Part shown: positions 5,301 to 23,753 of the stretch, piece after piece
Position numbering within the stretch: the first letter of the stretch is position 1
How the letters are laid out: the number at the start of each line of letters is the position of its first letter
DNA from: a virus
IMG/VR virus record: IMGVR_UViG_3300003177_000276
Location: 1-24,093 of that record
DNA length: 24,093 bases
Reading direction: 5' to 3' (one strand)
The notes under the pieces: model-generated
What the model was told of the DNA's origin: nothing
What the model saw: the letters and a program-made list of their open reading frames with translations, nothing else
The model's database searches: none
Position numbers and translations under genes: made by a program

Positions 5301-6421
5301 CATACAATGTGAAAAAAAGAATAATGACCAGAAGACCTGGTAAGCAATATGTGGCAATAAGAAGAGATATAGTGGATATGTATGTGGGTGGAAGGGCTCC
5401 AAGTGCACTAAATATGAGGATACCATATACGGGAAAAACTGTAAATAGTCTGCTCAGAACCACGGAGATAGGTGGAGCAATCTCTAACATGATAAAAATG
5501 GGTGGAGAGATATGGGATGAAGTAGTCGGTATGCAAAAGGTAGATATAGTAATCAAAACTCCAAAAGTAGTACTGGATAATATACGATCAAATGTGAACT
5601 ACTCAGTAGCTCTAGGTCAGATGCCATGGACTACTATAGATAAGCAAGCAAGAATGTTCATAGATACAAAAAAATATCTAGATAATGAACAAGAGATAGA
5701 TGGACTAGAAGTAAGACTAAAGCTAAAACTAGATAGCAAATCAGATAGAAATGCAATGAGAAGACGACTGAAAGATCTCAAGAGAGAGAACTCGTCAATG
5801 ATGATAGATGATCTAATGAAAGCAGGTCTATTCACATCAGTGATGGAAGATGTGGAAGATAATGATCTGAAAGCATCAAGTAAAATAAAGAGATTCTTAG
5901 AAGATAGTGAACTGGTGAAGGCAATACAAAAGCAGACTCCAGATGTGGTCCAAGATGGACTAGCAACGATGTATATGACTGAAGATACTCCTCTATTCAA
6001 AGCAATGCTGATGACAGTACAGTATAGTGACTTCGTAGCAAGAGCTGCAAGATATCAATTCCTGGTAGAGGAACAAGGTCTAAGTAAAAAAGTGGCAATG
6101 AAAATGATACTGGATGAATTCGTGAACTACAATAGGATGCTACCTAAGGTTCTAAGATGGATGAATGCGGTGGGTGACCTATGGTTCATACAGTACTTCC
6201 TAGGGGCAAATAAGTCACTAATCAATAAAGCAAAGACTAGAATCAGTGCAGTGGTTGGAATGTCATTTCTAACAGATATGACAAATCCAACTGAAGCCGC
6301 AATTCCATTCAAAGACTATGGATATATGATTAAAAATCCATGGGAAGTAGCGTACGAAGGTACGAGTAACAATATAGTCCCAATGTCGACACTAGAGATG
6401 GTCGGACTGTGGGACAAATAA
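2399..6421 (+). CDS. Very large virion-associated/ejected-type protein with HELIH motif
   Basis: A 1340-residue protein that starts at the ATG overlapping the previous stop. A zincin-type motif HELIH occurs at residues 280-284, followed about 65 residues on by SEFIALGMTN, a plausible third-ligand helix. The pattern matches the motifs of the upstream gene, so the two proteins appear to share a repeated domain. The rest is mainly helical and charged, with no recognised enzyme motif; I looked for polymerase signatures such as DFDGD and found none. The C-terminal 150 residues (around FVNYNRMLPKVLRW and WFIQYFLG) are rich in aromatic residues and could interact with membrane. Large size and position at the end of a rightward block suit an internal virion or ejection protein, but this is inference. 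Codon use is extreme: nearly all Phe are TTC and Leu is almost never TTA. Confidence 0.75.
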   Translation: MTCSIDNQKKMWNDQVKRVMKQNPKASKEAVEDAVMRDIIGPMTIEQMSEKSNKVFGYHMASSGGKIQVKYSGGRKTDIRRILSVQDKKSTGTNGKVNGTAYTLVLDNGEQYTFENGESRSKRTAQGRHVTIGVMDNIESRVKSNSNEIETALNEMEAVNAFGSNGKGIKQGASHEEIKDELWKDPDKMMELFDLITENEEDSLSGSEKKHTKELRELLETMTESTTPIFNEFKVFIDKQAKKNQGMAIVNKKDSKIVLEMRDGSSAITEDMSGVETYMHELIHMSVEMARQYKKGAISREIAELNKLYTKARDSITVEDLIVNGNKKAAQKQWNQMFKNGDKGISEFIALGMTNAKVKEALKAVEAKDMKHERKTDTLFGYISHAVIRLYEIIRDMVTANRGLDGDERLRWIVDKMWQHNDLSGKKASIDGKIAEYAAKARQRLDKTLVDIVVASASVVGKSVDWMIEQNKNNFLGQTLETGRNLASLFNPFMSEARKTERNRALASLSEFMDGENNWLGMGWLLAPEGTLMWLANYFADDDAETEKLEKFGLMNQQLDRHRQRKIEAYGGEAKKAIGDATKQQQIALTRVLLETDAQSLLSSYTVDEVKMMLADDSMVEQLIEDERARLDGMIDSEEVLNYIKSQTMGLGHAMATGVTGSSVQHNAYDILLMKSVDRKPSRPFTYGNRNNFRQILETTDRLATLEAIKRSDKNDKRLASEVETGLDVIMAMHKEYMRKAIEFAKKNKTGVYPSKGEMKDLKEDTMSSKMASGDAKTEAHMKKLGYKKVGDAGVDGLAMYTSRVRGVLSFNKQAMAKINESKRLHTVSTIKGRGQDEIAAEVTAIKIGAESDIALQMKEIRMPKMDGYIKLGSGEKVKTYGISVDKKLYADKMMQDNKAPIMLGKMMAEISEKEEAIELNDKVYSSILDDMRKYERGDPLYIEIGPDSKQRGQTATEYSKELWSNLPYNVKKRIMTRRPGKQYVAIRRDIVDMYVGGRAPSALNMRIPYTGKTVNSLLRTTEIGGAISNMIKMGGEIWDEVVGMQKVDIVIKTPKVVLDNIRSNVNYSVALGQMPWTTIDKQARMFIDTKKYLDNEQEIDGLEVRLKLKLDSKSDRNAMRRRLKDLKRENSSMMIDDLMKAGLFTSVMEDVEDNDLKASSKIKRFLEDSELVKAIQKQTPDVVQDGLATMYMTEDTPLFKAMLMTVQYSDFVARAARYQFLVEEQGLSKKVAMKMILDEFVNYNRMLPKVLRWMNAVGDLWFIQYFLGANKSLINKAKTRISAVVGMSFLTDMTNPTEAAIPFKDYGYMIKNPWEVAYEGTSNNIVPMSTLEMVGLWDK

Positions 6422-6423
6422 GA

Positions 6424-6454
6424 ACCAGCGGAGAAAAAAGCTAGTCCCTCTGGC
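6424..6454. terminator. Weak hairpin between convergent genes
   Basis: Arms CCAGCGG and CCTCTGG pair with one mismatch across a 17-nt spacer that holds an A6 (T6 on the leftward strand) run. It lies exactly where the rightward and leftward blocks meet. The stem is short and the T run is in the loop rather than after it, so a bidirectional terminator is only a possibility. The left arm is part of a copy of the dispersed octamer (6421-6428). Confidence 0.25.
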
Positions 6455-7063: not shown

Positions 7064-7123
7064 ATATGTCCTCCTCTCCTGGTTCTGGTGTGTCTCAATA
7101 AAGCGGGTGAATACTAGACTGTG

Positions 7124-7576
7124 TTAACTGCGACAATCTAGTATCTTCTCTAACTCTGGTTCTGGACCAACAAAACCATCTGGCTTCGTCAGTTTTCCCA
7201 TACTATCATGTCTGCACTTGAGTTTCGCCTCATTCGCATGCATAACTACTGCTATACCCTCAAGTGCCTGAGTGGGACTGAGACCTAGCTTGAATAGTGA
7301 GCCAAATGCATATATAATGCTGTCGATGTGCTTGTCAAAGCGGTCTACATCTGGAATCTGTGATCTGCTAGTAGAACTAATTATAGTTCTAGAGACAGTT
7401 TTCGGATCCGAATTCTCATCAATAAGTAGTTTCCTACAAAGATATGATAAGTCAAAACCCTCTAATGCCTCCTCGATCTGGAAACTAGACTCAAGCTCAT
7501 CATTATATGCATAAAGCAATCCTGCCTGTCTATTCCAATCATATATAGACTGGAATATCTGAGATGGAGGGATCAT
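7124..7576 (-). CDS. MazG-like all-alpha NTP pyrophosphohydrolase
   Basis: A 150-residue protein with the layout of the all-alpha NTP pyrophosphatases (MazG/HisE-like). It has an N-terminal EExxE-type helix (around SSFQIEEALEGF, residues 30-41), a middle Asp-rich helix (FDKHIDSIIYAFG), and the family-like C-terminal block VVMHANEAKL, DSMGKLTKPDGF and PEPELEKIL. Such enzymes hydrolyse (d)NTPs to monophosphates and pyrophosphate, and phages use them in nucleotide-pool control or host stress-response interference. It starts at an ATG overlapping the stop of the upstream gene (ATGA), and the neighbouring ribonucleotide reductase fits a nucleotide-metabolism role. The metal ligands are assigned by pattern only. 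Confidence 0.75.
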   Translation of the reverse strand: MIPPSQIFQSIYDWNRQAGLLYAYNDELESSFQIEEALEGFDLSYLCRKLLIDENSDPKTVSRTIISSTSRSQIPDVDRFDKHIDSIIYAFGSLFKLGLSPTQALEGIAVVMHANEAKLKCRHDSMGKLTKPDGFVGPEPELEKILDCRS

Positions 7577-7962
7577 GAATGTTTCTCGGTATCATCTACT
7601 ATGCTAGTCGAACGAATGTCTGATTCAATAAGTACTAATAGAGTACGAGCAAGCTCAGACAGATCTGCAGGTGCAATAGTATCACACTGAGTATACATAC
7701 GATTCAAAATCTTCTCACGAAGAGTAGGTATTGACAATCCTGGAATCATATCATCTGTGACAGAGTCAACTCCCTCCTGGAATCCAAGATCGTATCCATC
7801 TATGTGACCTTTCTCATAGATAGTGTCATAATGTGGATTCTGCTCCTGTAATTCTGATTCAGAACCAGTGTGAGTAGATTCCTGCTCGTCATCAATACTT
7901 TTTGCCATTTCGTCAAGAATTTTGAATACTTCTTTCATTTCTAATGGTATCTTTTTTTTCAT
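7573..7962 (-). CDS. Hypothetical acidic protein, 129 aa
   Basis: Not recognised. It starts at an ATG at 7962 with AAGGA 8 nt upstream. It has an acidic, polar N-terminal half (about residues 15-45, Glu/Ser/Thr-rich), then a Gly/Tyr-rich patch (KGHIDGYDLGFQEGVDSV) and a helical C-terminal half. It is coupled to the MazG-like gene by an ATGA overlap and follows nrdB after a spacer with two hairpins. An octamer copy at 7861-7868 encodes TGSES. Confidence 0.7.
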   Translation of the reverse strand: MKKKIPLEMKEVFKILDEMAKSIDDEQESTHTGSESELQEQNPHYDTIYEKGHIDGYDLGFQEGVDSVTDDMIPGLSIPTLREKILNRMYTQCDTIAPADLSELARTLLVLIESDIRSTSIVDDTEKHS

Positions 7963-9191: not shown

Positions 9192-9200
9192 GTGTCCCTC

Positions 9201-12200
9201 CTAAATTTCACAACCATCACCAGAACAAGACTTTTGCTCTATGGTGATTTCATCTGGCGATTTAACATTGTTGTAATACCAAGCTTTTAAGCCAAATTTC
9301 CATGCTAAAAAGATATCAGATATAAGTTCCTTTATAGGTACTTTTCCATCTGGATATAATTCTGGATTGTAATAGCTGTTAGCAGAAATAGATTTATCAA
9401 TCCAAAACTGAGTAACAGCTACATGCATAATATAGTTAGGCGTAATCTTTCTATCGAAAGCTGGATCATAGTACTGAGCAAGTTTCGGAAAACCTGGTGC
9501 AATCTGCTTGATAGAGATAGACTTGCTAGACTTAATAGTCATCAGATCTCGAATAGGCTCTAGTCCAGATGTCATATTCCCAATTATTGAGCTGGTTTCA
9601 CCTGGTGGAATCATGGAGAGACCACAGTTATACATGCCAAACTCACCCACTCTGGTTCTGAGATAGTTCCAATCCTGATGGATATGAGGTTCGCCAGATG
9701 CGATATCTGAAATAAGTGAAGCTATATGTCTATTAGCTCTATCCTGTGGCATAACTAAGTCTGAATAAGTAGTGTCTGAGAAACCTGGTGCCCTGCCTAG
9801 TTCTTCTGCTAAATGAGTCGAAGATAGCATAAGATTATACTGAAATGCTTCCATATATGTGAAATGAGATAGTAGAGCGTCGTAATCTCCATACCTCCAA
9901 TGGTTCTGAGCTAGCCAGTGTGCATGACTACCAATTCCGATACCAATGTCACGATACATCTTTACGAAAGCGTTTGCCTGAGTCGTAGGATGTTCCTGAC
10001 GAAGCATAATATGGGACTGTGCCCTAACTAGTAGGTCGCAAACTTCTGGTAATTCGTCAATGGATACAAGAGCCTGATTAATGTTTGATAGTACACATAC
10101 TCCAATATCTGGACGATTTGGAAAATCTTCATCAATTGGCTCTATTGGTGCACCGTACTCTAGGCAATTGCCAGTAAGTACACCATCGAACATTAGACGA
10201 TGCCTCTCTGGTTCAGAACCACAAAAGGTTTCAGCAAATTCATCGTTATCCGTAACAGAAACGACTGCTGTAAATGCTTGGCAGTCTCTGGTTCTTAGTT
10301 GATCAGGCAAAGATATTCTATAACCTTTATAACCAAGATTATTCAAATGCACTAACCCAGAATGTGTAATAGAGAGTACTCTAGTTTCCTGGCACCAATA
10401 TTCTCTTGATTTACTAGAACCGTCATTCATCGGTAATTTATAATATCCTTCTTGTTGGCGAACAGTAGATGAAGAATGAACCCCAAGCTCCTGTAGCATA
10501 AGTTTAACTTTCTCTAAAAAATCTGGTTTAGAAGAAATTATCTGGATAGAGTAAGCTCCATCTGGTAAGGTTAATAAGCATCCATCGCTGTCAATTAGTC
10601 CAGCCAACCAATCAAGTCTAGTCTGTACAGAAAAAGATATAGATGGAACTACATATTTAGCAAACATATTCTTTGTTGCTGACTTGTCGTATCTAACTAC
10701 AATACGATCAGATTCTGATTTATTATATGATACAGTTGAAGAAATGCTAGTGTATCCAGATAAATGTTTAATAATATCTTTTTTTTGTTCACTATAAAAA
10801 GTAATTTGAGAAGATCCATCTGCATTATCTGTTCCGTCACCAGTTTTAAATCCAGAATCATATGCTTTATCTAAAGTATCAGTACCATGTGCAATTGGTT
10901 CTAAAGAAAATTTCTCTAGTTTGTCACCAACCTTTAAATCTACCGTGCGTGTCTCGACTGGTTTTCCATGATAAGAATTCTGAATATACCATTTGTGGTA
11001 TTCAGTAGCCTTTATTGTGGTTCCATTCGATAACTTCACAGTAAGAACCTTGCTGTAGTCTGATGTCTTAAATAATGGAGTCATACTCCATGATTTACCA
11101 TTCCAGACTTCTAAAGTTTTCCCAGCAACATCTGAAATAGGTATATATCCATAATCTTTTGTAAGAATTTTTGTATCACCTGTCACACATATGTTGAACT
11201 GTCTGACTATCTTTTTCCAAGATGAACTAGTGTTTGCATTGTCTACATTCATGATATAGTATATACCATTTTCAAAACGCTCTGATGCAAATAATTCCAT
11301 CAACTCAGAACCAGGGATATATGGATGGTTAGGGTTATTACTGATAACTGTTTCAATTGCTGCTTCGTAGATTGGAGCAAACTCCTCTGGTGTTTTTGTA
11401 CCATATGCCGCATGTACTTCAGGGAATTCCCTAGCACTGAATAAATAGATTGGTAAATTTTTATTCATTCTGTGATACATATATCCAGACATCTTTATAC
11501 CATGCTTAAGATCCTGTATACGCTGCTCAATGGCAGTACGAGGAGATTTTAATGACAAGATATGGCGGATTTCAGGGTCAAATATGTTCACATAAGTAAC
11601 TGCCTGTCCTCTACGGTTCATCTGAGAAGACGTCTGTATATCTGCATCGATAGCTCGCATAAGCTTCACTTTTCCGGCATGGATGATTTTTCCACTCTTC
11701 ACTTTGTCTCCGACTGATGCAACGTCTGCTAAGTCGATACCGATGCCAGCTGAAGCAACTGTATGCTTAATAGTAGCTGATTTTCCCTCTGTCCAAGATT
11801 TAATCTTATCCCCGAATCGAATAGTAATGCATGATGCATAGTCAGTATTTTCTGTACGAAGAGCCTGCATCTCTGGTGAAGGAAGTGATATATGAAACTT
11901 CGAAAGTCTGTCGTACATATGCTTGATGTAAGTCATGCGATCCTTGTGGTAATCTCTAAAGATGTCCATAGCAACTGCCATAAACAACATCTGAGGTGTC
12001 TCGTCGCAACCCTTGATGAAGTATGCATCGATAAATTTTTCTATACCTGAAAGAGTAAAAGTAAAATCCCTGCTATGATCTATATGCTTGTCCAGATCAG
12101 ATATCTCGTCGATAGTGAATGATTCTAAGAGGGTCTCTGAATAATAAGCATCTTCTATCTTTTGGTAAAGATATGAATAGAGAGGCCATGGTTTAGTACT

Positions 12201-12470: not shown

Positions 12471-12489
12471 GTGTTTCCTTTTTGAAAGT

Positions 12490-12511
12490 GGACGGGAAGT
12501 ATATCCCATCC
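12490..12511 (-). promoter_or_regulatory. Hairpin in the nrdA leader
   Basis: In the leftward RNA, GGAUGGGA and UCCCGUCC pair over 8 bp (one G-U) around a 6-nt loop, 20-41 nt before the nrdA start codon and just upstream of its ribosome site. It could control nrdA translation or be a processing site. There is no U run, so termination is unlikely. Confidence 0.45.
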
Positions 12512-12526
12512 TACCTAAGTTGCTGA

Positions 12527-12793
12527 TTAAGAACCAGAGGCAATAAGATCTTTCAAGCCAGAAGTTGCTTTGAATTTTGGTACCATCTTGTCTGATGTAG
12601 TGTAAGTCTTAGTAGTTCCTGGAACTGTTCCTGACTTTCCTTTTTGCATCTGAGTAACAAATTTACCAAATTTAGGTATTGCTACTTCATCTCCTTTAGC
12701 TATTGCTAGTGAGATGTGTGCGAATACTGACTCAATGTCAGAAACTGATACGCCTGATAGCTCCGATAGAGCTTTCTTATTTATGTTTGCCAT
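12527..12793 (-). CDS. HU/IHF-like DNA-binding protein
   Basis: An 88-residue basic protein with the HU fold pattern: an N-terminal helical pair (INKKALSELSGVSVSDIESV), the GDEVAIPKFGKF strand turn (residues 34-45), a basic beta-arm region (about 46-70, Lys/Thr-rich), and a C-terminal helix (SGLKDLI). The family binds and bends dsDNA as a dimer, and a phage copy could compact DNA or help replication. ATG at 12793 has AAAGGA upstream. The stop TAA is part of an octamer copy (12530-12537). The first codons overlap the end of the upstream zinc-ribbon gene. The arm lacks the usual RNP-type sequence, so binding specificity may be unusual. Confidence 0.85.
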   Translation of the reverse strand: MANINKKALSELSGVSVSDIESVFAHISLAIAKGDEVAIPKFGKFVTQMQKGKSGTVPGTTKTYTTSDKMVPKFKATSGLKDLIASGS

Positions 12794-12935
12794 AAAAATC
12801 CTTTAATGAAAATATATATGGCCTTACTCCCCTGGTTCTGGTGTGGACAGATATGGAGATGCCAAACTCGTATTGACAATTAGTACAAAACTCTTGTGCG
12901 TAAATATTGTATTTTCCACAGTTTGGACAAATCAT
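12777..12935 (-). CDS. 52-aa zinc-ribbon protein
   Basis: Starts at an ATG that overlaps the stop of the 70-codon gene (ATGA). The product opens MICPNCGKYNIYAQEFCTNC, a clear CPxC and CxxC pair forming one zinc ribbon (Cys3, Cys6, Cys17, Cys20). The tail (HTRTRGVRPY) is basic and is encoded over a dispersed octamer copy. The gene ends inside the beginning of the HU-like gene. Coupling plus the intact metal-binding motif supports a real gene. The ribbon probably binds nucleic acid or protein. If translation normally stops mattering after residue 25, the tail is simply leader DNA. Confidence 0.6.
   Translation of the reverse strand: MICPNCGKYNIYAQEFCTNCQYEFGISISVHTRTRGVRPYIFSLKDFYGKHK
12794..12845 (-). 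promoter_or_regulatory. Octamer-containing leader of the HU-like gene
   Basis: In the leftward direction it reads CACACCAGAACCAGGGGAGT, then AAGGCCATATATAT, then the AAAGGA site. The same order (CAGAACCAG, GGAGTA, GGCC, ATAT, AAAGGAT, ATG) recurs at 17492-17545 before the 135-aa gene and, shortened, at 7061-7091. A shared leader element is therefore visible. I see no good sigma70 -35/-10 pair. Confidence 0.5.
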
Positions 12936-13343: not shown

Positions 13344-14795
13344 TTATAGTTTATTTAATGGATCATAATCTGTATCTAAATAGACTGCATTTATAAGTGT
13401 ATGCCTGTGCCTTGTGCAGATGACATAGTATTGATAAAGTATATCATTAAAGCCAGATTCTGATAGTTTGTTTTCTTCTAGGTCCTCTAAAGCTTTCTGA
13501 AATGCATAATTCATGTCATCAGCTATTTCTACATAGTCAAAAGTGAAACCCTTCGATGTAAATACAGTGCTAAGTGTCCATTCATGGTTCTTAGTACCAT
13601 ATTGCTTTTTAGCATACTCAAACGCTTTCCATATAGCTGGAGGACCATATTCTGCTATGATACGAATAGCAGTCTTGATAGCAACATCTTTCGAATGAAC
13701 AGCTGCTATATATCCAAGTGGTGTACCATAGTCGATATGAAGAGATGGAGATCTATACCAAATGTCTACATCTTCTTGTAAGTGTCTGAACTCTGGATTC
13801 GGAATAAACCCTCCCTGCTTCAATGAAAGCAATATGGTAAGCAATTCAAATATAGCTTTTGGTGGGCGAAGTAAATTAAACCCTCTTCCGAGTTCCATAA
13901 GATCAATCATCTTCCCTATTAGGGCAGAATTCGTCTTAGTAAGAAATGCACGAGATTTAATAGTCTGGTCGTCATAAGTATTCCCACGGAAACTATATGA
14001 TGGCTTATTAAGGTGTCTACGCATAAACTCCTGGACTAACAATGCGTCTTTGTCATTTACACGGAAAGTTTTGGTTAGATTAGCTAGTCTAACCCCTGGT
14101 TCTGATTCAAGTACCTCGAAACCGTTTATACAATCATTGAACGAGTATAATGCCTGTCTTTGGTCTCCAACTGCTATTTTCTTTTTTGCTTTTAATAGTT
14201 TAAATATCTCTATGGTAGTTGCAAAACTATCCTGGCATTCGTCAAGAAACAGTGCATCTACTTCTGGTACCTGGATGATGTCATTCGCCAGTAGCATATG
14301 AAAATATTTCATGTAAAACTCATGAGTAACTGGGATTTTTTTAGACTTCATAAATTTCATATACTTAGTAATCATATCCTCTACGGCTGGAATGATTTTC
14401 TGTTCTTTACAAAAGTCAGATACCTTTAAATGTCGTGAAAGACAAAACTGGCGAAGTCCCTGGGCTACAGCCATTTTATATTCCCAGCGACATTTTTCTT
14501 TGACATCTCTTGGATTAAAATAGCCTACATCTAAGCCAAATGCTGTGACTGTATGCTTGTATGCTAGACTGTGGATAGTGGAACTCTGAAAGTGCTTTGG
14601 AAAGGCTATGACATTTTCGTCTGCGACTGACTTGTTGTATACAATACAAGTGCCTGATTTAATAAATGGTAGTTTAGCTGTCTCTAATAGAGTGTGAGAC
14701 TTACCACTTCCGGCAACCGAGTCGATAAGAAGTATTTTGGTATCTGGTTTCTGGAAAAGCTCTATAGCTTCATGCTGTTCTGGGGTGAGTGCCAT
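13344..14795 (-). CDS. SF1 (UvrD/Rep-like) DNA helicase
   Basis: The start is the ATG at 14795 (MALTPEQHEA) with AGGA 9 nt upstream; an in-frame ATG at 14888 would overlap the resolvase and lacks a site. The 483-residue protein shows superfamily 1 motifs in order: a Q-like TPEQHEAI start, Walker A AGSGKS (residues 28-33), Walker B DECQDS (185-190), motif III GDQRQ (210-214), a motif V-like TSKGFTFDYVEIAD near 430, and motif VI-like YYVICTRHRHTL near 470. It is shorter than UvrD (about 720), so accessory 2B domains are reduced, as in several phage SF1 helicases. It probably acts 3'-5' in replication restart or recombination next to RusA, SSB and the RecA-like ATPase. Substrate polarity is inferred from the family. 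Confidence 0.9.
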   Translation of the reverse strand: MALTPEQHEAIELFQKPDTKILLIDSVAGSGKSHTLLETAKLPFIKSGTCIVYNKSVADENVIAFPKHFQSSTIHSLAYKHTVTAFGLDVGYFNPRDVKEKCRWEYKMAVAQGLRQFCLSRHLKVSDFCKEQKIIPAVEDMITKYMKFMKSKKIPVTHEFYMKYFHMLLANDIIQVPEVDALFLDECQDSFATTIEIFKLLKAKKKIAVGDQRQALYSFNDCINGFEVLESEPGVRLANLTKTFRVNDKDALLVQEFMRRHLNKPSYSFRGNTYDDQTIKSRAFLTKTNSALIGKMIDLMELGRGFNLLRPPKAIFELLTILLSLKQGGFIPNPEFRHLQEDVDIWYRSPSLHIDYGTPLGYIAAVHSKDVAIKTAIRIIAEYGPPAIWKAFEYAKKQYGTKNHEWTLSTVFTSKGFTFDYVEIADDMNYAFQKALEDLEENKLSESGFNDILYQYYVICTRHRHTLINAVYLDTDYDPLNKL

Positions 14796-14842
14796 AATGG
14801 TTCCTATAAAGTTGTTGATTTGTTTAATATATGAATATACAA

Positions 14843-14864
14843 GAACCAGGTGATTGCCTGGCTC
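14843..14864 (-). promoter_or_regulatory. Hairpin built on the octamer, upstream of the SF1 helicase gene
   Basis: Arms GAACCAGG (14843-14850) and CCTGGCTC (14857-14864) pair over 8 bp (one G-U in the leftward RNA) with a 6-nt loop. It follows the rusA-like stop by 5 nt. The arm is an exact dispersed-octamer copy. Only a short U-rich tract follows, so termination would be weak; a leader control element is equally possible. Confidence 0.45.
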
Positions 14865-14868
14865 GAGT

Positions 14869-15306
14869 CTAATCACTGCGATATGCACAAAGCTGAAACT
14901 GAGTCTCAGATAGTGTTTCTATATGAGTTGAAGGCCTGATGATTAGAGTGACTTTGTCATCATCAGAGATCCAATTCATGTCCTGTAAAAGGTCCGAAAT
15001 CCACTTAATGTTATGGATTAGATTGTCTGTGTCGATTTTACGCTTATTATGTCTTAAGATGGAATACTCTAGGGTAATAGAGCGTAAAGCTCTAAATCCA
15101 TCCTCTGGTTCTGGAATGAAAAACTCTTTGAGGAGAGATTTGTACTTGGCTTTTATCTCGGCCCTTCCATATCTCAACCATCTTGATGCATTATTCAATG
15201 TGCAGAGTTGCTCTGTCACTTTTCCAGTCTTCTTCGACTTGCTCTTAAATTTAGCTAAGGGAACTACTGTTTTAAAGAGCAAGTCTCCTGTGATGGAGAT
15301 GCTCAT
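14869..15306 (-). CDS. RusA-like Holliday junction resolvase
   Basis: A 145-residue protein with the RusA signature: a basic region (SKSKKTGKVTEQ; HNKRK) and the acidic catalytic set KIDTDNLIHNIKWISDLL and ISDDDKVT (residues about 93-122). In the family, Asp residues of D-x-DN and of the DD pair bind Mg2+ to cut four-way junctions. ATG at 15306 has AGGAGC 7 nt upstream. Close packing between the SSB-like protein and the SF1 helicase suits a role in resolving recombination intermediates before packaging. The length is slightly over the usual 120 residues. Confidence 0.85.
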   Translation of the reverse strand: MSISITGDLLFKTVVPLAKFKSKSKKTGKVTEQLCTLNNASRWLRYGRAEIKAKYKSLLKEFFIPEPEDGFRALRSITLEYSILRHNKRKIDTDNLIHNIKWISDLLQDMNWISDDDKVTLIIRPSTHIETLSETQFQLCAYRSD

Positions 15307-16222: not shown

Positions 16223-16882
16223 TTAGTCTGTGATACCGTAGTAATCTACAAGTATATCGTCGATCTGCTTGAGATCATTGTCTATGAGTAGTTCTGAAAA
16301 CATCCCCATAGGTGATTTATAAGGTTCAGAATTTCTTTCCTTCTGAGTCTTAAACTTATATTGTCCGTCTGCGAATGATGCCCCGAGAACAGTAGTAAAT
16401 AGTCCTTCAGGGGTCAATAAGTTGTCGATAAGCTTTCCAGCTGTCTTCATCTTAATATGACCATTTGCATCTTCTTCTGTATGAGTAAGAATGTACACAC
16501 GGACATCGTCTGGGAGACTATCTACGAACTCCATAAGCGTACTGAAATCTCTAGCAAGCTCACTCCATTTGTCATAGCCTTTATCGTCGATAGTATCCAT
16601 GACTCTACCAGAGATACAATATACGAAGTCGTCAATGACTATAATCTTCTTCCCAACATCTACCATTTTCTGCATGAATGGCTTCATCTTGTGAAGATCT
16701 CTAGTGACGAATCGTGAGCCAGTAGCTGACTCTTTGTCCCATAATTTCCAATTCTTTCCAGAAGGGAATGGTAGTCTCTTATTTATAGGCTGAATTACCA
16801 TGGTTTTCTCTGGATCGAGATTGCGAAGACTAGTAGTCTTTCCGGAACCAGATGCTGCCATAATTAGTGTTTTTTCTGCCAT
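16223..16882 (-). CDS. RecA-like AAA ATPase (AAA_24/Sak4-type recombination protein)
   Basis: A 219-residue single-domain P-loop ATPase. Walker A is MAASGSGKTT (residues 8-17) and Walker B IIVIDDFVY near 80-88. A later block, KTAGKLIDNLLTPEGLFTTVLGA, is followed by YKFKTQ and a KSPMGMF stretch, the order typical of phage AAA_24/Sak4 ATP-binding proteins. Those are RecA-core proteins that promote single-strand annealing or exchange together with a cognate SSB, which is two genes downstream. ATG at 16882 has AAAGGATAC upstream. The Walker A Gly-Ser codons come close to another octamer copy (16844-16851, one mismatch). Confidence 0.85.
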   Translation of the reverse strand: MAEKTLIMAASGSGKTTSLRNLDPEKTMVIQPINKRLPFPSGKNWKLWDKESATGSRFVTRDLHKMKPFMQKMVDVGKKIIVIDDFVYCISGRVMDTIDDKGYDKWSELARDFSTLMEFVDSLPDDVRVYILTHTEEDANGHIKMKTAGKLIDNLLTPEGLFTTVLGASFADGQYKFKTQKERNSEPYKSPMGMFSELLIDNDLKQIDDILVDYYGITD

Positions 16883-17086
16883 AATGTATCCTTTCTGGCA
16901 CTATGTACCAATGTGTGATATGCACTGACATCAGAAAGCTTTGATGCTTTTCTGTCATATGCGATTTTATGGACTTATAAGAGTATCCTCTAGGCCAAAA
17001 TTAGATGTGCTACTCAAGAACCAGGGGTGATGAAATACTGCGGATGGACGCAAATAAACCTGGTTCTTGAGGAACACACTAAAGTG
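16883..17086. promoter_or_regulatory. 204-bp intergenic region with a long inverted repeat
   Basis: This is the longest non-coding stretch in the leftward block. It contains the 13-bp perfect inverted repeat described separately, and an imperfect one at 16926-16957 (TGACATCAGAAAG, then CTTTTCTGTCA). I see no convincing sigma70 promoter. Because it lies within the replication and recombination genes it is a candidate for a promoter-operator region, an RNA element or an origin. A short leftward frame inside it has no ribosome site and runs into the ATPase gene, so I did not call it. Confidence 0.4.
17013..17071. repeat. Perfect 13-bp inverted repeat made of two octamer copies
   Basis: CTCAAGAACCAGG (17013-17025) and CCTGGTTCTTGAG (17059-17071) are exact reverse complements separated by 33 bp. 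Each contains the dispersed octamer, and the identity extends five bases beyond it on the GGTTCT side. It would suit a dimeric DNA-binding protein, a cruciform or a long RNA hairpin. Confidence 0.85.
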
Positions 17087-17494
17087 CTATTCCTTTTCTA
17101 CTGGTATAATCTTCGACATATCTTCAGCTATCGCCTTGAAAACATCTAGTATCTCTGAGTGATCTGGATGGACAAGGGTAGTGTCCTTCTCATAAACTGG
17201 AGCAAAAATAGTCTCGTCCCCAACAAAGCAAACAGCTACTGGTATAGCTCCAATCCCGGTGTCAACAAACATAGATAGACTAACACCATTTCCATATCTA
17301 GTGAGATAGACAACGGTGTCTAATCCAGAATCCTCGTCAACTAACTGCATGGAACGATCATCGTCCCACCAAACTCTGCAGATACCACAATATCTCTCTT
17401 CCATCTGTACTGACATATCCTGCATGAGCAACATCGGAGACATAGGTCCAGATAGGGTACCATCCTCGACTGTGCACAAATTCTGTAATTTCAT
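17087..17494 (-). CDS. Hypothetical 135-aa protein
   Basis: Not recognised. ATG at 17494 has AAAAGGA 9 nt upstream. The sequence is mixed alpha/beta and acidic, with a Cys pair and aromatic cluster (YCGICRVWWDDD, about residues 35-46) and hydrophobic strands (GAIPVAVCFVG). It has no membrane segment and no signal peptide. Its leader carries a copy of the octamer-containing element shared with the HU-like gene. Confidence 0.7.
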   Translation of the reverse strand: MKLQNLCTVEDGTLSGPMSPMLLMQDMSVQMEERYCGICRVWWDDDRSMQLVDEDSGLDTVVYLTRYGNGVSLSMFVDTGIGAIPVAVCFVGDETIFAPVYEKDTTLVHPDHSEILDVFKAIAEDMSKIIPVEKE

Positions 17495-17592
17495 AATAAA
17501 TCCTTTTCTATAATAATATGGGCCTCTACTCCTCTGGTTCTGAGAAGATGTGAAGGCGGGTAAATTCTGATTGTTGGCAAAAGATGGTATTC
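17495..17592 (-). promoter_or_regulatory. Leader of the 135-aa gene with an octamer copy
   Basis: In the leftward direction TTTACCCGCC, then CAGAACCAGAGGAGTAGAGG (octamer 17534-17541), then CCCATATTATT and the AAAAGGA site. From the octamer on it parallels the HU-like leader. The TTYACCCGCYTT stretch recurs before the octamer at 7079. A 29-codon TTG frame (17491-17580) crosses it but is poorly supported. Confidence 0.45.
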
Positions 17593-17802
17593 CTATCGTG
17601 AGAACGCATCAATAATCATTTGTAATTCTTTGTCGCTTAATGGATTTACCATCAATGAATTAAAATCATGTATAAAATTAGCTATATCGTCATAATCATC
17701 TCTTATAAATTCTGCATACTCTGCTACTAATGTGTTTCTACTGCCAATTTTTTCTCTTTCTAAGAGTAATTGTATCTTTGCATTATGTGTTTTTTTCTTC
17801 AT
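17593..17802 (-). CDS. Stand-alone primase C-terminal (PriCT-like) helical domain
   Basis: A 69-residue basic and helical protein that resembles the C-terminus of the primase encoded just upstream. Here GSRNTLVAEYAEF, then FNSLMVNPLSDKELQMII; there GTRNDMIFNFGCM, then FNSMIHDPLRDSEIDTIL. The shared pattern GxRN, FNS, PL-x-D-x-E is that of PriCT-type domains, which help primases bind template or start synthesis. The start ATG overlaps the primase stop (ATGA) with GGAG upstream. A tandem domain duplication that stayed as a separate gene is the simplest explanation. It could bind the same partner or DNA as the primase tail and so modulate it. Confidence 0.75.
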   Translation of the reverse strand: MKKKTHNAKIQLLLEREKIGSRNTLVAEYAEFIRDDYDDIANFIHDFNSLMVNPLSDKELQMIIDAFSR

Positions 17803-19943
17803 TTTATTCTCCGTGCTATAGACTTCAATATAGTATCAATCTCCGAATCCCGTAGAGGGTCGTGGATCATACTATTAAACTTCCTAACTTCGTACTCATA
17901 ACTGGTCGACTGATACTGCTCAGCTACCATACATCCAAAATTGAATATCATATCATTTCGTGTGCCATTGGTAGTCCTAGATAAGAACCAGCGATAAGCT
18001 CCCTCGATTCTATTCGAATCCTCTGAATGCTCAGATCCATTATTCTGGTTGCTAGCAAGAAATTTATCAAGGTTATCAGCACCAACATGGTTCTCTGAAG
18101 AATCCTTAATAAATGGACGAATATCTAACATAGTGGCAGACTCATCTGGATTATACCAATACTCTGCATCAGCAAAGCCATAGTACCAACGAGAAGCATT
18201 CTGACACTTCGTGTCAGCCGAAGACATACCAAGGGCAGACAGTAGATTCAGATAAGTCTCTGCATAAACCTTTGGTTTCAGATGAAACTTCGATATGGTA
18301 GGCAGAATAAGACGGAATCTATCCTGAACTACACCATTCTTCTCTATCTGGTGAGAACGAGTAGTAGCAATAAGATACTTCGTGCCACTAAATAGACTCT
18401 TCGTCTCCTCTATAGTGATGCCATCATCAACATCTATGATGATGAGATTCTGGTCAGGTATATAATTATTATCAGTGATATGTCCATTCTCGAATGTACC
18501 AGCTGAATATCTGAGGCTTGAACAAACTATTTTGTGCAATCCCTCAAAAGAACCCTGCTTTCTCTGCCAGTTGGTAGCTATGGTCGGTCGTGGATCATCA
18601 TTCGTAGAGATGACTATACCATCAAGCTTCGTCTCAGTGAGTTTTTCTAAACGATATTTGATAATATTGTCATACTTCTTCTCTAATATAGAGTTCCCTA
18701 GTTCATTTGCAAACTCTACTGCAAGAATCATCTCATCATCTAATGAACGCATATTGAGACCTTTGATCTCTTTTATGAGTTCTGTACGAGAGATGAAACC
18801 ACGTTTCGAAAGTGCATCATATATCTGCTCATAGACAGGTTTAATTTTCACAGACTCCTCTGCTGTAGCATCAACTCTAGATGAGTAGTCGATAGCATAC
18901 TTCATATGGTCGAGAGTGATAGTATCTGAAAGATCTAAAATAGCTATAATACCAGCAAGTCGCTCTATCTTCCTGGGAGAACCTATATCATCTGAGATGA
19001 GTGATTCTGAGTTCTCTCGCTGGATTTCCTTCTCTATATCCCAGTCAACTAGATACTGTCTAGTCTCTGCTGACATAATGATCTCATTGGTATGATTGAT
19101 ATGTGAGCGTAGTTCTTTGAAAAAGTTCTTGATAGTCTGTATGTCGTCATCTGACATAGATTCAAAGTATCTATTTCTATTCTCTGATTTTTTATAATCA
19201 TCATTGTGAAAAATGAAGAAACGTCTAGCTACGCCTGAGACATAATGAGATAGTAAATCTTCCTTTAATTGAGGCTTTAGCGTGAGTTTAGCAGGTGAAC
19301 CCATGAGCATAGAGTTGTATGCGATGTCCTTGACTGTAAAGTAGTTTTCTCCACCATCGGATACAATGGCAGCTCCTTCTGATACTCCGTTATCGTAGGC
19401 TTGCTTGAGCTTAGTGAAGATTCCACTCATTTGGCCGAGATCATCACCAAGTTCTGTGGTAGTGACGTTAACGGAACCAAACCCCAGATCAGAGATAACC
19501 TGAGCTGATTTTTGAAGAGCCTGCTCTGAGCTGGAGACAGTTTGGTAGATGTTTGAAATTTTAATGTATCGCTTTTCCAATTCATTTTTCTCATTCCTAT
19601 TGTTTGGATTCATAATGAAGGCTTCAGCTCTCTGGATGAAACTCTCAAACATGCCTTCGTATGGTTCAGCTGTAAGTTCTAGGGAAAAGTCCTTGCCTAA
19701 TCCTGGATTACCAAAGATGATAGACATGAAGTTAGGTATAATTCGCTTAGTCCCACGATTAGTAGTACGGATAATACGAGTATTCTTAAACTGTAAAGCA
19801 CAAGCTGTATTAAAGAATAGTGTGGATTCTAATAATTCTGGTAGAAAATTATACTCTGCCATGTCCTGGAAATAATCGAACATCATCTCAATAGATTTTG
19901 GTCGAAACTCATTCTTTAGATGTGGGTATAATATGTCTGACAT
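17799..19943 (-). CDS. Replicative helicase-primase fusion (P-loop ATPase plus archaeo-eukaryotic primase)
   Basis: A 714-residue protein. The N-terminal half is a P-loop ATPase: Walker A GNPGLGKD at residues 78-85, and downstream VTTTELGDDLGQ and YNSMLMGSP blocks resembling DUF3987-type helicases. The C-terminal half has archaeo-eukaryotic primase motifs: IIDVDD (Asp504/Asp506), TTRSH with His531 followed by RFRLILP (542-548), and a D577...NASRWYYG block. A PriCT-like tail follows (about 650-714). It would prime and unwind DNA at the fork. The order (helicase first, primase second) is the reverse of most such fusions. ATG at 19943 has AAGGAGA 6 nt upstream; the stop overlaps the next gene. 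Confidence 0.85.
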   Translation of the reverse strand: MSDILYPHLKNEFRPKSIEMMFDYFQDMAEYNFLPELLESTLFFNTACALQFKNTRIIRTTNRGTKRIIPNFMSIIFGNPGLGKDFSLELTAEPYEGMFESFIQRAEAFIMNPNNRNEKNELEKRYIKISNIYQTVSSSEQALQKSAQVISDLGFGSVNVTTTELGDDLGQMSGIFTKLKQAYDNGVSEGAAIVSDGGENYFTVKDIAYNSMLMGSPAKLTLKPQLKEDLLSHYVSGVARRFFIFHNDDYKKSENRNRYFESMSDDDIQTIKNFFKELRSHINHTNEIIMSAETRQYLVDWDIEKEIQRENSESLISDDIGSPRKIERLAGIIAILDLSDTITLDHMKYAIDYSSRVDATAEESVKIKPVYEQIYDALSKRGFISRTELIKEIKGLNMRSLDDEMILAVEFANELGNSILEKKYDNIIKYRLEKLTETKLDGIVISTNDDPRPTIATNWQRKQGSFEGLHKIVCSSLRYSAGTFENGHITDNNYIPDQNLIIIDVDDGITIEETKSLFSGTKYLIATTRSHQIEKNGVVQDRFRLILPTISKFHLKPKVYAETYLNLLSALGMSSADTKCQNASRWYYGFADAEYWYNPDESATMLDIRPFIKDSSENHVGADNLDKFLASNQNNGSEHSEDSNRIEGAYRWFLSRTTNGTRNDMIFNFGCMVAEQYQSTSYEYEVRKFNSMIHDPLRDSEIDTILKSIARRIK

Positions 19944-20006: not shown

Positions 20007-20927
20007 CTAGAAAGGAATGCTGTCCTCGTCTATCTCTATTGGTGGAGGTGTATCTCCATAACTCTGGTTCTGAGATGGTGTATCCTGATCATCATCAGTT
20101 TCATATCTGATAAGCTCTGATTCGTATTTTTCTACTAGCCAATCAATGAAGAATTTAAGTGAATTGAAATTCTTCTCTTGCTTGATAATATTTCTACAAC
20201 GAGTTTTATATGCCTTCAACCACTGGCGTTTCTTCTCTGGATACTTAGAAAATGCAACCAGTGCTCCCTCTGAGATCCATTTAGGGTCATACTCATATGG
20301 ATAGCCTTTTTTAGAGATCGGACTACCGAATTTTCTGGTATATATCTCTGCTCCAATAGAAATAACAGTCTGGATATTATCAGTATACTCATATGCAGAA
20401 GCTAGTTCCGTCATAGTCCAATTCGAAATATTTGCCTTAGCCTCTAGGAGAGCTTTCTCTTTTTTCTCTAGTTTCTGGATACTAAGTGTGTATTTACTAA
20501 AATCAAATTCCTCTAAATCATCTGTGAGTGTCTGATCAAGATGCTTCAATTCCATCTGAGAATCAGATGAGAACTTGGTAATCTTGTCTTTCTCTGGATC
20601 ACCTGAAGGCTCTAGTGGTGAAAATGGAGTAGTATGAAAACCAAAGCGAGATGTACACTGAGCTAAATCAAGTAACTCTGCATATTCTTTTCCTGGTGCG
20701 GTGCGAATGAGACGACCTACCTGCTGGAGAAATAGAGAGAATACTTTAGTAGGACGCATAAGAACACCTAATTCTATATCCTTAACATCGAATCCTATAG
20801 CAAGCCGCGATATACTGACAAGAGCTTTGCCTTTAATTGCTTTTATCTTCCCGCTTTTTTTTCTGTTCTCTATAATTTCTAATACTAGCGCATTTTTTGC
20901 TGCAGTACTTTTGGTTTCCTGTGCCAT
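20007..20927 (-). CDS. C-terminal part of split SF2 helicase, with SSB-like tail
   Basis: Carries SF2 motifs V (ALVSISRLAIGFDV) and VI (LQQVGRLIRTAPG), which are missing from the upstream fragment. Together they make one complete helicase. Recognisable helicase sequence starts near 20828. Codons before that coincide with the end of the HNH gene in another frame. If translated alone, ATG at 20927 has AAGGA 7 nt upstream; an ATG at 20948 is also in frame. The C-terminus ends PPPIEIDEDSIPF, very like the acidic tip of bacterial SSB (DDDIPF), suggesting that it docks on SSB-binding proteins. It could act as a separate subunit or as the 3' exon of a spliced message. Confidence 0.85.
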   Translation of the reverse strand: MAQETKSTAAKNALVLEIIENRKKSGKIKAIKGKALVSISRLAIGFDVKDIELGVLMRPTKVFSLFLQQVGRLIRTAPGKEYAELLDLAQCTSRFGFHTTPFSPLEPSGDPEKDKITKFSSDSQMELKHLDQTLTDDLEEFDFSKYTLSIQKLEKKEKALLEAKANISNWTMTELASAYEYTDNIQTVISIGAEIYTRKFGSPISKKGYPYEYDPKWISEGALVAFSKYPEKKRQWLKAYKTRCRNIIKQEKNFNSLKFFIDWLVEKYESELIRYETDDDQDTPSQNQSYGDTPPPIEIDEDSIPF

Positions 20928-21504
20928 AATATTCCTTAGTGCATTCATTACATTTTTTTATATGTGTATGAGAATTCCTAGAATGAGATCTATTTCGTTT
21001 TCCTGATATCCACATACATGTTTCTGGTGAATAAATCTTAAACCTTGGTGACAAATAATCTGATAGAATATCTTTGTCTAGCTGAAGTCCTTCTTCCCAT
21101 CCATTTGATAAAGCCCAGTTTTTGAAACTATCAAATGACTCCAGCCACTCATCGCATACTTTCACATTTTTGTAAAATTTATATGCTTTTGATTTTTTGT
21201 TATAACATCTATCTTTCATTCCAACCCATACATTGTATAAAGGATGCCAATTCCCTTTTGCAGCCATACCGTGAGTAGTTTTACGTTTTGCAGTATTTTT
21301 ATTCGCGCAAGCTAAACATGTTCTTCCTAGTTTTGATAAGCTATCAAATCTTGTTTTCCATGGTTCTCCGCATGATGGACACTTTGCAATAACATATCTT
21401 TTTGTTTTTGGCTCAAATGATAAGTGCTCTAATATTATATATCCATTTTTTTCTGATGGAAATTTATATGGTTTATGATTCGTTTTATTTCCTATTTTTG
21501 ACAC
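20833..21504 (-). CDS. HNH homing endonuclease interrupting the helicase gene
   Basis: A 223-residue protein with an N-terminal zinc ribbon (CPSCG near residue 42, CLAC near 65). An HNH-type region of the phage kind follows: WVGMKDRCYN, VCDEWLESFDSFKNWAL, LQLDKDIL, SPETCMWI. The C-terminal zinc finger is CNECTKEYYG...KYCSKKC. The start is a GTG at 21504 with AAGGAGA 6-8 nt upstream; no ATG fits. Phe is mainly TTT, unlike its neighbours, in keeping with a mobile gene. Its last 95 bases overlap the 5' extension of the downstream helicase fragment in another frame, and its stop is about 5 nt before helicase homology resumes. Confidence 0.9.
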   Translation of the reverse strand: MSKIGNKTNHKPYKFPSEKNGYIILEHLSFEPKTKRYVIAKCPSCGEPWKTRFDSLSKLGRTCLACANKNTAKRKTTHGMAAKGNWHPLYNVWVGMKDRCYNKKSKAYKFYKNVKVCDEWLESFDSFKNWALSNGWEEGLQLDKDILSDYLSPRFKIYSPETCMWISGKRNRSHSRNSHTHIKKCNECTKEYYGTGNQKYCSKKCASIRNYREQKKKREDKSN

Positions 21505-21528
21505 AAGATTGTCTCCTTCATTTTACAT

Positions 21529-21534
21529 ATTATA
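21529..21534 (-). promoter_or_regulatory. Possible -10 box before the HNH gene
   Basis: TATAAT on the leftward strand, 25 nt upstream of the GTG start, in the AT-rich space after the helicase fragment's stop. The best -35 match 16 bp upstream (TTTATT) is poor, so an independent promoter for the endonuclease is only possible. Confidence 0.25.
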
Positions 21535-21540
21535 CTATGT

Positions 21541-22482
21541 TTATACTTCAAATAAAGTTAACCGTTGGTTTTCAACTTCGTCTACTATAGATGCATAATC
21601 CTCAAAAGATATATCTATCTGGTTATTTTTGTACCAATCTAATGCTAATCTATTTATGTCTTTTGATGATTTTGAATGGAATGATACAGCTGCATATCCG
21701 TCGCTAATCATAGCGTTTGTCACTGCGTCACACTGTTCAATAGATGAACAGAATACAATAGTTTTCTTGTCCTTCGCATTCATCTCATTCATAGACTGTA
21801 TAGACTGCTCTATATGCTTGTGAGTAGCTATAACCTCATCTAGTTTCGATACAGTATAGTCAGCTCCAGTGGATTTCACAGCAGAGTAGTCAATAGATTC
21901 TGACCACTTCGGAATAAAATATCTCACTGGAGTCAAATACCCCTGGTTCTGAAGGTCCATAACAGAAAGTGTACGAATGATGGTAGTATCACGAAGTTTA
22001 AAATTCTTCGCATCAAATGGTGTAGCACTAAGTCCAACACGAGCGTCTGGAGATAGTCTATCTAAAATAGTACGAGTACGCTTCGTATCAAACTCCTTAT
22101 GGATCTCATCCTGGATAACTAAGTCACAAGTGATATCAACCTTGTCAATACGAGATAGTAGAGTCTGTGCCATAGCAATATGGATACGCTCTTCGTGATT
22201 GAATTCTGATTCACGACCTGCTTTCAAGATAGAATAGGTCAGCCCTAGGTGATCTAAGTGTTCAGCTATCTGATCTATAAGCTCTGTGATATTCACAAGG
22301 ATAACTATGTCACTAGAATCTAATTCCCTGCATAATCCAGCGATAACTGCAGATTTTCCAAATGCAGTAGGTGCCTCTATGACAACTGAATTCGAACCAA
22401 ATGCAAGTTCTCCAACTGTCTCATCAACAGCATCCTGCTGGTGAGGACGCAAAACGAAATATTCTTTAGCTGATGTGCTCAT
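21541..22482 (-). CDS. N-terminal part of split SF2 (DEAH-type) DNA helicase
   Basis: A 313-residue product with motif I APTAFGKS (37-44), motif II DEIH (125-128), motif III SATP (152-155) and motif IV KTIVFCSS (240-247). The last about 23 residues (ISFEDYASIV onward) are probably not helicase sequence but read-through into the inserted element. Motifs V and VI are on the downstream fragment. The ATG overlaps the stop of the upstream 55-codon gene (ATGA) with AGGAAG upstream. Phage helicases of this type remodel replication or recombination structures. Whether the halves are joined by RNA splicing or work as two polypeptides is not visible here. Confidence 0.9.
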   Translation of the reverse strand: MSTSAKEYFVLRPHQQDAVDETVGELAFGSNSVVIEAPTAFGKSAVIAGLCRELDSSDIVILVNITELIDQIAEHLDHLGLTYSILKAGRESEFNHEERIHIAMAQTLLSRIDKVDITCDLVIQDEIHKEFDTKRTRTILDRLSPDARVGLSATPFDAKNFKLRDTTIIRTLSVMDLQNQGYLTPVRYFIPKWSESIDYSAVKSTGADYTVSKLDEVIATHKHIEQSIQSMNEMNAKDKKTIVFCSSIEQCDAVTNAMISDGYAAVSFHSKSSKDINRLALDWYKNNQIDISFEDYASIVDEVENQRLTLFEV

Positions 22483-22658: not shown

Positions 22659-23015
22659 CTATCTAAAAAAAGTAGCCAGCCATGGCCAAAGTCTCTGTGA
22701 TTTCAATTTTTCTTCATACTCTTTGTCGATAGCATCTAAATGCTTCTGTAAGGAACTCTTCTCTGCTGGTTCTGATGTGTCTTCGTCGGTAACAGTGGTA
22801 ACCCTCGGAGAGTAATTGTCATGAGCAATCATATATGAATACTGCTCCCAGTTCCAATATGGAGATAAGTCTCTGATGGACTCTTCAGTATGTCTACACT
22901 TCTTAATGATAGGTTTTCCATCAATAAAAGACTGCATAATACGGATTTTATGTCGAACTGAATCGAATTTCTGTCGTTCTTGATTTCTAAGAACATGTTC
23001 TGGTAATTGGTCCAT
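22659..23015 (-). CDS. Hypothetical 118-aa protein
   Basis: Not recognised. ATG at 23015 has AAAGGAG 7 nt upstream. The N-terminus is basic and helical (VLRNQERQKFDSVRHKIRI), followed by a segment with Trp/Tyr (SPYWNWEQYSYMI). A Thr/Glu-rich linker (about 70-88, crossing an octamer copy that encodes SEPAE) leads to a charged helix and a hydrophobic end (LWPWLATFFR). The aromatic C-terminus could contact membrane or a protein partner. Confidence 0.7.
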   Translation of the reverse strand: MDQLPEHVLRNQERQKFDSVRHKIRIMQSFIDGKPIIKKCRHTEESIRDLSPYWNWEQYSYMIAHDNYSPRVTTVTDEDTSEPAEKSSLQKHLDAIDKEYEEKLKSQRLWPWLATFFR

Positions 23016-23027
23016 GGTCGGACTCCT

Positions 23028-23753
23028 TTAGAAAATAATATTGTTGATTTTAGCAGTTGTAGCTGCGTAGTTTGATCTGTATTTACATGAGTATGACACT
23101 GGACAATAGTGAGCACATGTCATGTTGACAGACTTCCCTTTCTGTCTATGAAAACGCAGATTAGTACACTTCGGTGGAAGAGTACCTGAATCGATATGAT
23201 GCTGGAGCGAGTCTGTATACTGAATGAGCTGAGCCTCTATAGCCTCATAATCATATATCTCTTTCGGGATGATGTAATTGATAGGCTGAGTAGGCATCAC
23301 TTTATAGTCAGTGTATAATCTATCTATGGCTATAATCATGAATTTCCAATCAGAACCAGGGGTAATAACTGTACCTCGGTATGAAAGAGCAGCAATAGCT
23401 AATTCAAGGAACAATGGATGATCTGGACCAGCCTTACGAAGTTCAATAATACGGTTAGTAGACATAGCAGTAGTGATAGCTATAGTCTGAGTATCATGGT
23501 CTAGATAGTCAACTCTGGATACTATAGACCAACCATTTGACAATTCTATGATTCTCTTCGAAGACTCTGCTGAAGTAGCTAACTTTACAATACTATTGAA
23601 GGTCTGTGAAAAATGCTGATTAATATTCTCTCCACTGGTTCTGGAAAGATAAGATACTAACATCTCCTGTCCTAATTCATGTGCATATAGAGATTTCTCT
23701 GCATGAGGAGTAGTAGATACTACTAATGATTCAAATACATCTTGGTAGTCCAT
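23028..23753 (-). CDS. RecB/Cas4-like nuclease-fold protein with Cys cluster, degenerate active site
   Basis: A 241-residue protein. The middle (GWSIVSRVDYLDHDTQTIAITTAMS, about residues 73-97) has the strand-Asp-turn-strand layout of PD-(D/E)XK nucleases. Where the catalytic D/E-x-K should be, it has AITTAM. The C-terminus has four Cys (CTNL, then TCAHYCPVSYSC), the arrangement that holds an Fe-S cluster in Cas4, AddB and related nucleases. It lies directly after a RecB-type nuclease gene, so it may be its structural partner. ATG at 23753 has AAAGGA 9 nt upstream. Nuclease activity is doubtful; the fold is an inference from pattern. Confidence 0.55.
   Translation of the reverse strand: MDYQDVFESLVVSTTPHAEKSLYAHELGQEMLVSYLSRTSGENINQHFSQTFNSIVKLATSAESSKRIIELSNGWSIVSRVDYLDHDTQTIAITTAMSTNRIIELRKAGPDHPLFLELAIAALSYRGTVITPGSDWKFMIIAIDRLYTDYKVMPTQPINYIIPKEIYDYEAIEAQLIQYTDSLQHHIDSGTLPPKCTNLRFHRQKGKSVNMTCAHYCPVSYSCKYRSNYAATTAKINNIIF

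Follow-up and report, generated by a model that had tools for sequence, protein, structure and literature searches.

A dispersed, strand-biased word of N4-like phages as a candidate primase start site, with a facing pair of copies best read as a gene-end hairpin

In the stretch of viral DNA analysed here (24,093 nucleotides, hereafter the window), the octamer AGAACCAG occurs 25 times, against 0.9 in shuffles and 1.6 by a second-order Markov model, and two facing copies of it make up an inverted repeat at 17.0 kb. We propose an account in two layers, which we hold with about equal belief and doubt. The word would be a start site of the gp43-type AEP primase, the octamer being the window lineage's form of a genome-wide, strand-specific word with the core AACCA found in N4-like phages, and the pair at 17013–17071 would be a gene-end hairpin. 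We infer both the primase as the reader of the word and the action of the hairpin.

Judged from its genes, the window covers 24 kb of the genome of an N4-like phage, deeply divergent from the Schitoviridae it resembles. It carries genes for a vRNAP-like protein, ribonucleotide reductase (RNR), a UvrD-type helicase, RusA, Sak4 and a gp43-type primase. Its N4-like marks are the vRNAP (E = 7e-93), the primase (E = 2e-63) and an N4-like synteny, and the tblastn matches of the primase and the vRNAP list Schitoviridae. The nearest named relatives are distant, with about 27% identity in the primase, and a nucleotide search of phage records gave no match. Two uncultivated genomes are more informative. 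G001 (73.7 kb) has a Sak4 56% and a primase 27% identical to those of the window, while G072 (93 kb) has a primase 83% and an RNR 75–78% identical. The octamer is the top octamer of both, with 53 copies versus 2.5 expected in G001 and 76 versus 5.1 in G072. Enrichment of the octamer was absent in the early relatives L013 and L015 and in the UvrD-only relatives L326–L332.

In the window, the copies occur in every reading frame, on both strands and in intergenic DNA too, most of them being intragenic (Table 1), and codon effects were rejected as their cause on these grounds. The base before the octamer is always A or C. A 45-bp leader (repeat D8; 12796–12840 and 17498–17542, 73% identical) stands before two unrelated genes and contains the octamer, then GGAGTA, then AAAGGATTT as a ribosome-site-like end.

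Table 1. Coordinates of the features discussed; positions are those of the window unless a record is named, and "octamer" denotes AGAACCAG.
Feature	Position	Strand	Remarks
Octamer	1654..1661	+	
Octamer	2708..2715	-	
Octamer	3012..3019	-	
Octamer	3126..3133	+	
Octamer	6421..6428	+	at stop codon of vRNAP-like gene
Octamer	7079..7086	-	intergenic
Octamer	7156..7163	-	
Octamer	7861..7868	+	
Octamer	9652..9659	-	
Octamer	10288..10295	-	
Octamer	11307..11314	+	
Octamer	12530..12537	+	
Octamer	12832..12839	-	intergenic
Octamer	14096..14103	-	
Octamer	14842..14849	+	
Octamer	15105..15112	-	
Octamer	17017..17024	+	left arm
Octamer	17060..17067	-	right arm
Octamer	17534..17541	-	intergenic
Octamer	17984..17991	+	
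Octamer	20064..20071	-	
Octamer	21943..21950	-	
Octamer	22766..22773	-	
Octamer	23352..23359	+	
Octamer	23635..23642	-	
Left arm, 13-bp inverted repeat	17013..17025	+	CTCAAGAACCAGG; holds octamer copy 17017-17024
Right arm, 13-bp inverted repeat	17059..17071	-	CCTGGTTCTTGAG; holds octamer copy 17060-17067
Whole hairpin	17006..17078	-	20-nt arms, 18 pairs; inner loop stem 17038-17053
Gene without assigned function	17087..17494	-	hairpin after its 3' end
Sak4-like RecA-fold ATPase gene	16223..16882	-	downstream of hairpin; Sak4 locus compared
Sak4 locus compared, G072	L325:6661-7359		
N4 gp43-type primase	17799..19943	-	PriCT_1 (residues 658-712), AEP-like DxD (D504, D506), SxH (H531); proposed octamer reader
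Insertions in G072 (phrog_16 helicase, UvrD)	L325:975-1985, 9113-10000		

Most of the N4-like phages tested carry lineage-specific words that share the core AACCA, in tens to hundreds of copies, and across 22 phages that encode a gp43-type primase, a set that includes the window and G001, the observed-to-expected ratio (O/E) of the word ranges from 1.6 to 9.9. In N4, GAACCA occurs 220 times versus 86 expected, and GAACCAG is the most over-represented 7-mer of the genome (110 copies); in D456, TGAACCA occurs 181 times versus 18. The word takes the form GAACCA(G) in N4, G7C, KP8 and Ea9-2, GAACCAA in JWAlpha and pVco-5 (GAACCAA(G) in JWAlpha), TGAACCA in D456 and 1.238, AAACCA in LUZ7, LIT1 and PT15, AACCAA together with GAACCA in JA-1, and AACTAC or AACTAG in the more distant Alteromonas phages R22Y, AltPT11 and AD45. 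AAGCCA was considered as the word of LIT1 and LUZ7; it is enriched but not polar, and AAACCA was used instead. Four phages that entered the panel once the rule had been drawn up (S6, EE36phi1, KP8 and JA-1) agree with it in enrichment and strand sign, but in S6 and EE36phi1 the word does not rank first. Enrichment is absent from the unrelated phages T7, IME-DE1, VP4B and pYD38-A (O/E 0.6–0.8), as it is from the N4-like phage VBP32 (O/E 0.98). A second over-represented word, GGGTCA, is also strand-biased, at 48:21 in N4 (L224–L227) and as TAGGGTCA in the Alteromonas phage PT15-A5 (L276–L279). No published description of the AACCA word in N4 or its relatives was found in the open-access literature; a word that is enriched across the family and shows per-strand spacing seems to be new, its component pieces being of known kinds.

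When the genomes are aligned by the direction of the vRNAP, all 20 phages agree in which strand has the excess of AACCA, and this excess is present in gene-plus and gene-minus halves alike. Permutations of GAACCA show no consistent strand bias. However, a comparable polarity is seen for other words (CATCA and GCATC, for example), and beyond the strand-specific trinucleotide skew the bias is significant in about half of the phages, the window and G001 not among them. Since other words are as biased and the bias is mostly explained by skew, the polarity fits replication without proving it; strand polarity alone, once considered as proof of a replication role, was weakened by this control. The orientation of the word relative to gene direction is balanced, with p = 0.087 in the window and same-to-opposite counts of 34:37 in G001 and 91:115 in N4, and the two of 14 phages that reach a nominal p < 0.05 do so in opposite directions.

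This balance bears on the rival reading that survives best, although we regard it as unlikely, namely that the words are binding sites of a phage regulator or genome organiser, be it a stoperator-like repressor, a transcription factor or a signal for RNA polymerase pausing. The intergenic copies at 7079, 12832 and 17534 do lie upstream of genes, two of them in the shared 45-bp leader, and most phages that bear the motif share a vRNAP as well as the primase. Yet most copies lie inside genes, on either strand, and the near-equal numbers of same and opposite orientations in nearly all phages are unlike stoperators, whose orientation follows transcription (PMC9283540). In cluster A mycobacteriophages, too, an asymmetric word is repeated many times along the genome, but these stoperators are repressor-bound 13-mers, about twenty copies in all, which occupy promoters and short spaces between genes and point in the direction of transcription (PMC9283540), unlike the octamer, which is mostly intragenic and not oriented in this way.

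The spacing of the copies was most revealing in one close relative, G072, where the octamers on each strand are evenly spaced, with coefficients of variation of 0.56 (mean 2070 bp) and 0.53 (mean 3005 bp; p ~0.0002 each). This evenness survives correction for 36 single-strand tests. The two strands taken together are less even (p = 0.0145) than either one singly, suggesting that each strand is constrained separately. The corresponding values in the window, with its few copies, are p = 0.18 and 0.06, and the spacing in G001 is random, so that per-strand evenness is significant only in G072. Moreover, seven of the ten alignable window copies are kept in G072, versus 11% for random 8-mers (p = 1.8e-5). 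Together, the even spacing and the kept positions suggest that each strand needs a copy every 2–3 kb.

Even spacing on each strand separately is not predicted for Chi-like sites, that is, for a word read by a host or phage recombination nuclease-helicase in end protection and recombination, a reading that comes next among the rivals and that we also doubt. The word has several properties of such sites, in that it is dispersed, asymmetric, strand-biased and independent of genes, and it has CTGGT in common with E. coli Chi, GCTGGTGG. Nevertheless, it tracks the phage lineage rather than the host: JWAlpha, which infects Achromobacter and whose primase is 76% identical to that of N4, has a word close to that of N4, while phages of other gammaproteobacteria have TGAACCA or AAACCA. 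None of 23 cellular genomes, a set that may not include the host of the window phage, carries the word at phage density.

The primase is the candidate reader that we favour. A gp43-type primase is recognisable in every motif-bearing phage where it was sought, including the window, G001, AltPT11, R22Y and AD45, and the versions in the window, G001, N4 and Vibrio phage 1.238 have its PriCT_1 domain and AEP-like motifs. The N4 SSB, gp37 helicase, gp42 exonuclease and gp25 were not found in the window, G001, AltPT11, R22Y or the half of AD45 that was searched. The AEP assignment rests on the motifs and PriCT_1, because the AlphaFold model from the single sequence has a pLDDT of 34 and a sequence search found no solved structural relative. 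We know of no primase of this type that reads such a site. Recognition of specific sites does occur among AEP-type primases, as with RepB' of RSF1010 (PMC4434180). Two observations weigh against the choice of the primase. The vRNAP is also common to nearly all of the motif phages, and VBP32 (L268–L271) is a counterexample, with a gp43-type primase 48% identical to that of N4, no word and no detectable gp37 helicase. The exception of VBP32 could tell which protein reads the word.

Two known priming systems offer partial parallels. The T7 gp4 site, 5'-(G/T)2GTC-3', is, like the window word in its proposed role, a short asymmetric template word read on single strands; the T7 site TGGTC yields the primer ACCA, and TGGTTC, the T7 site plus one base, would here yield AACCA. 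The per-strand spacing in G072 is also of Okazaki order, the interval of 2–3 kb being on the scale of T7 Okazaki fragments, which average about 3 kb and range from 1 to 6 kb (PMC12839067). On the other hand, the T7 word is 3–5 nt long and mildly enriched in T7, whereas the N4-like word is 6–8 nt long and strongly enriched, and the T7 primase is of the DnaG/T7-like kind, whereas the present one is of the AEP/PriCT_1 kind, with a site specificity predicted from sequence. The second parallel is RSF1010, where RepB', a plasmid primase of the AEP group, reads the specific hairpin initiators ssiA and ssiB. These are 40-nt sites, of which each strand of RSF1010 has a single one (PMC4434180), unlike the tens of short sites described here, which lie mostly outside hairpins.

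According to the primase-start account, the exposed lagging-strand template would offer 5'-CTGGTTCT-3' to the primase, the primer would read AACCAG, and sites every 2–3 kb per strand would serve as Okazaki starts. Two facing sites would have developed into a hairpin directly downstream of the ORF at 17087–17494 and its stop codon, and this hairpin would most likely act on the transcript before the Sak4 gene, as a 3' end or a terminator-like structure. More tentatively, in a generalisation that we would sooner doubt than accept, N4-like phages may carry a genome-wide grid of primase start sites, even on each strand, whose word changes with the lineage of the AEP primase; such a grid would explain the word of N4, and facing copies would be reused as gene-end hairpins. 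N4 is a classic model in which lagging-strand priming is not settled in the accessible literature. If the word is a primase site, the Okazaki starts of N4 would be predictable from sequence and testable in E. coli K-12, and the word would provide a sequence tag for tracing primase specificity through the family. It would also illustrate that dispersed signals can turn into gene-end hairpins.

The facing pair itself had been noticed in a sequence-only reading as a perfect 13-bp inverted repeat with 33 bp between its arms and an identity reaching beyond the octamer. The coordinates and the complementarity are exact, the latter running five bases past the octamer, and the arms in fact grow outward to 20 nt (17006–17025 and 17059–17078), of which 18 are complementary. 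By itself the repeat is modestly improbable: of 400 dinucleotide shuffles of the window, 3.5% contained a perfect 13-bp inverted repeat whose spacer did not exceed 60. One facing pair is not rare, because 25 octamers give 0.33 expected facing pairs within 60 bp (P = 0.28); the improbable part is the identity beyond the octamer. As RNA of the gene strand (-), the hairpin folds at -33.3 kcal/mol (z = -8.25), with none of 200 shuffles as good, and the fold of the opposite strand also beats its shuffles (z = -6.14), the gene strand being the best. The gap had been called the longest intergenic one; at 204 bp it is the longest between co-directional genes (ORFs 16223–16882 and 17087–17494), but the convergent gap at 6422–6653 is longer (232 bp in our ORF set). 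The RecA-like ATPase gene reported beside it indeed belongs to the Sak4 family (E = 2.4e-67).

About 15 nt separate the stop codon of the ORF at 17087–17494 from the 13-bp stem, which is followed on the gene strand by TAGCACATC. G001 has four facing pairs within 60 bp, versus 0.46 expected (P = 0.0013), and no back-to-back pair. One of them lies right before Sak4, about 17 nt past the preceding stop codon, which is the same place as the window pair, and two further pairs lie 8–9 nt past stop codons, one of these between converging genes. The flanks of the octamers differ and yet still pair in four of five pairs (the window pair and the four of G001): position -1 is A-T in the window and T-A, G-U and A-T in three G001 pairs, while in the widest G001 pair the pairing is not extended beyond the octamer. 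Flanks that vary but keep their pairing argue that the hairpin is under selection. Facing pairs are not in excess in the other N4-like phages that were tested. Pattern scans for such pairs picked out 3 and 70 viral stretches; of the records counted, only G001 itself reached the density of the lineage, and the scan of genomes gave mostly Bacillota hairpins and no enriched host.

Conservation of the arms and their spacing, put forward earlier as a check, gives a divided answer. The pair is absent from the close relative G072, whose gap before Sak4 holds a single octamer, but in the distant G001 the corresponding position is occupied by a pair whose spacer measures 11 bp instead of 33 bp. Sak4 itself is only 43% identical between the window and G072, although most neighbouring genes are 66–83% identical, and 56% identical between the window and the otherwise distant G001. 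The Sak4 gene and its leader have therefore likely been exchanged, the window version resembling that of G001.

The pair might also be accidental, two abundant copies that happen to face each other to no effect. This reading would agree with the expectation of 0.33 in the window and with the absence of a pair from this gap in G072, but we consider it improbable given the pairing of 18 of 20 positions, the stability of the fold, the same arrangement at the same place in G001, the preponderance of facing over back-to-back pairs and the covarying flanks. Very unlikely is a replication start at the pair itself, as two opposed single-strand initiation sites like ssiA and ssiB of RSF1010 read by the AEP primase: it would suit one candidate priming site per strand within one hairpin and the G001 pair at the same place, but there is no pair here in G072, three of the four G001 pairs lie right after stop codons, which fits transcripts better, and GC skew does not switch at the 17.0-kb pair, its switch following gene direction.

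The pair is best read as a gene-end hairpin, and among the functions once suggested for it, a structured RNA is the one that is supported, by the very stable fold just past a stop codon and by the similar octamer hairpins after stop codons in G001. The idea of a replication origin was right in that a replication role looks correct for the motif overall, but this role would fall to dispersed sites and not to one origin here. Nor is the pair the functional centre of the octamer family, since only one of the 76 octamers of G072 lies in this gap and single copies are the conserved property. An operator bound by a dimer is unlikely for the family, because nearly all copies are single and non-palindromic; in the window 23 of 25 are single, and the spacing within pairs varies from 8 to 35 bp across the window and G001, leaving no fixed half-site spacing.

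Our best guess for the hairpins of the window and G001 is a transcript-end role or a role as terminators of a phage polymerase. The window hairpin resembles intrinsic terminators in its stability and its position just past a stop codon, but it differs from them in its 33-nt loop and in having no U tract after the stem on the gene strand. Since a proper U tract is missing from the window hairpin and from those of G001 alike, they are unlikely to be intrinsic terminators of the classical kind. An Rfam search gave no match at the gathering score, and a microRNA match to the hairpin of 24.5 bits, against a cut-off of 90, was discarded as spurious. The uptake sequences of Neisseria and Haemophilus (DUS and USS) are also dispersed asymmetric words on both strands whose facing pairs form gene-end hairpins. 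The window octamer shares all of these properties, but it belongs to a lytic-type phage lineage, for which there is no uptake rationale, and no word-bearing host genome was found among those scanned. Another gene-end hairpin of the window phage, with a 14-bp stem and a 3-nt loop, is located at 8037–8067, directly past the stop codon of the RNR small subunit, and contains neither an octamer nor a U tract.

The RNR large subunit (9201–12509, -) contains an intein with a LAGLIDADG domain at about residues 443 to 781, and its G072 ortholog has no intein. The phrog_16 DNA helicase (20007–22482, -) is split into two ORFs, which flank an ORF for an HNH endonuclease; the insertion in the G072 helicase is a different one, about 1 kb long and placed after residue 43, and another insertion is present in the G072 UvrD gene. 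Rfam gave no intron match. Finally, the vRNAP-like protein (207–6421, +) is 1340 amino acids long, versus about 3500 in N4, and a separate ORF of 730 amino acids overlaps the start of its gene by one base; the giant vRNAP protein may be split in the window phage.
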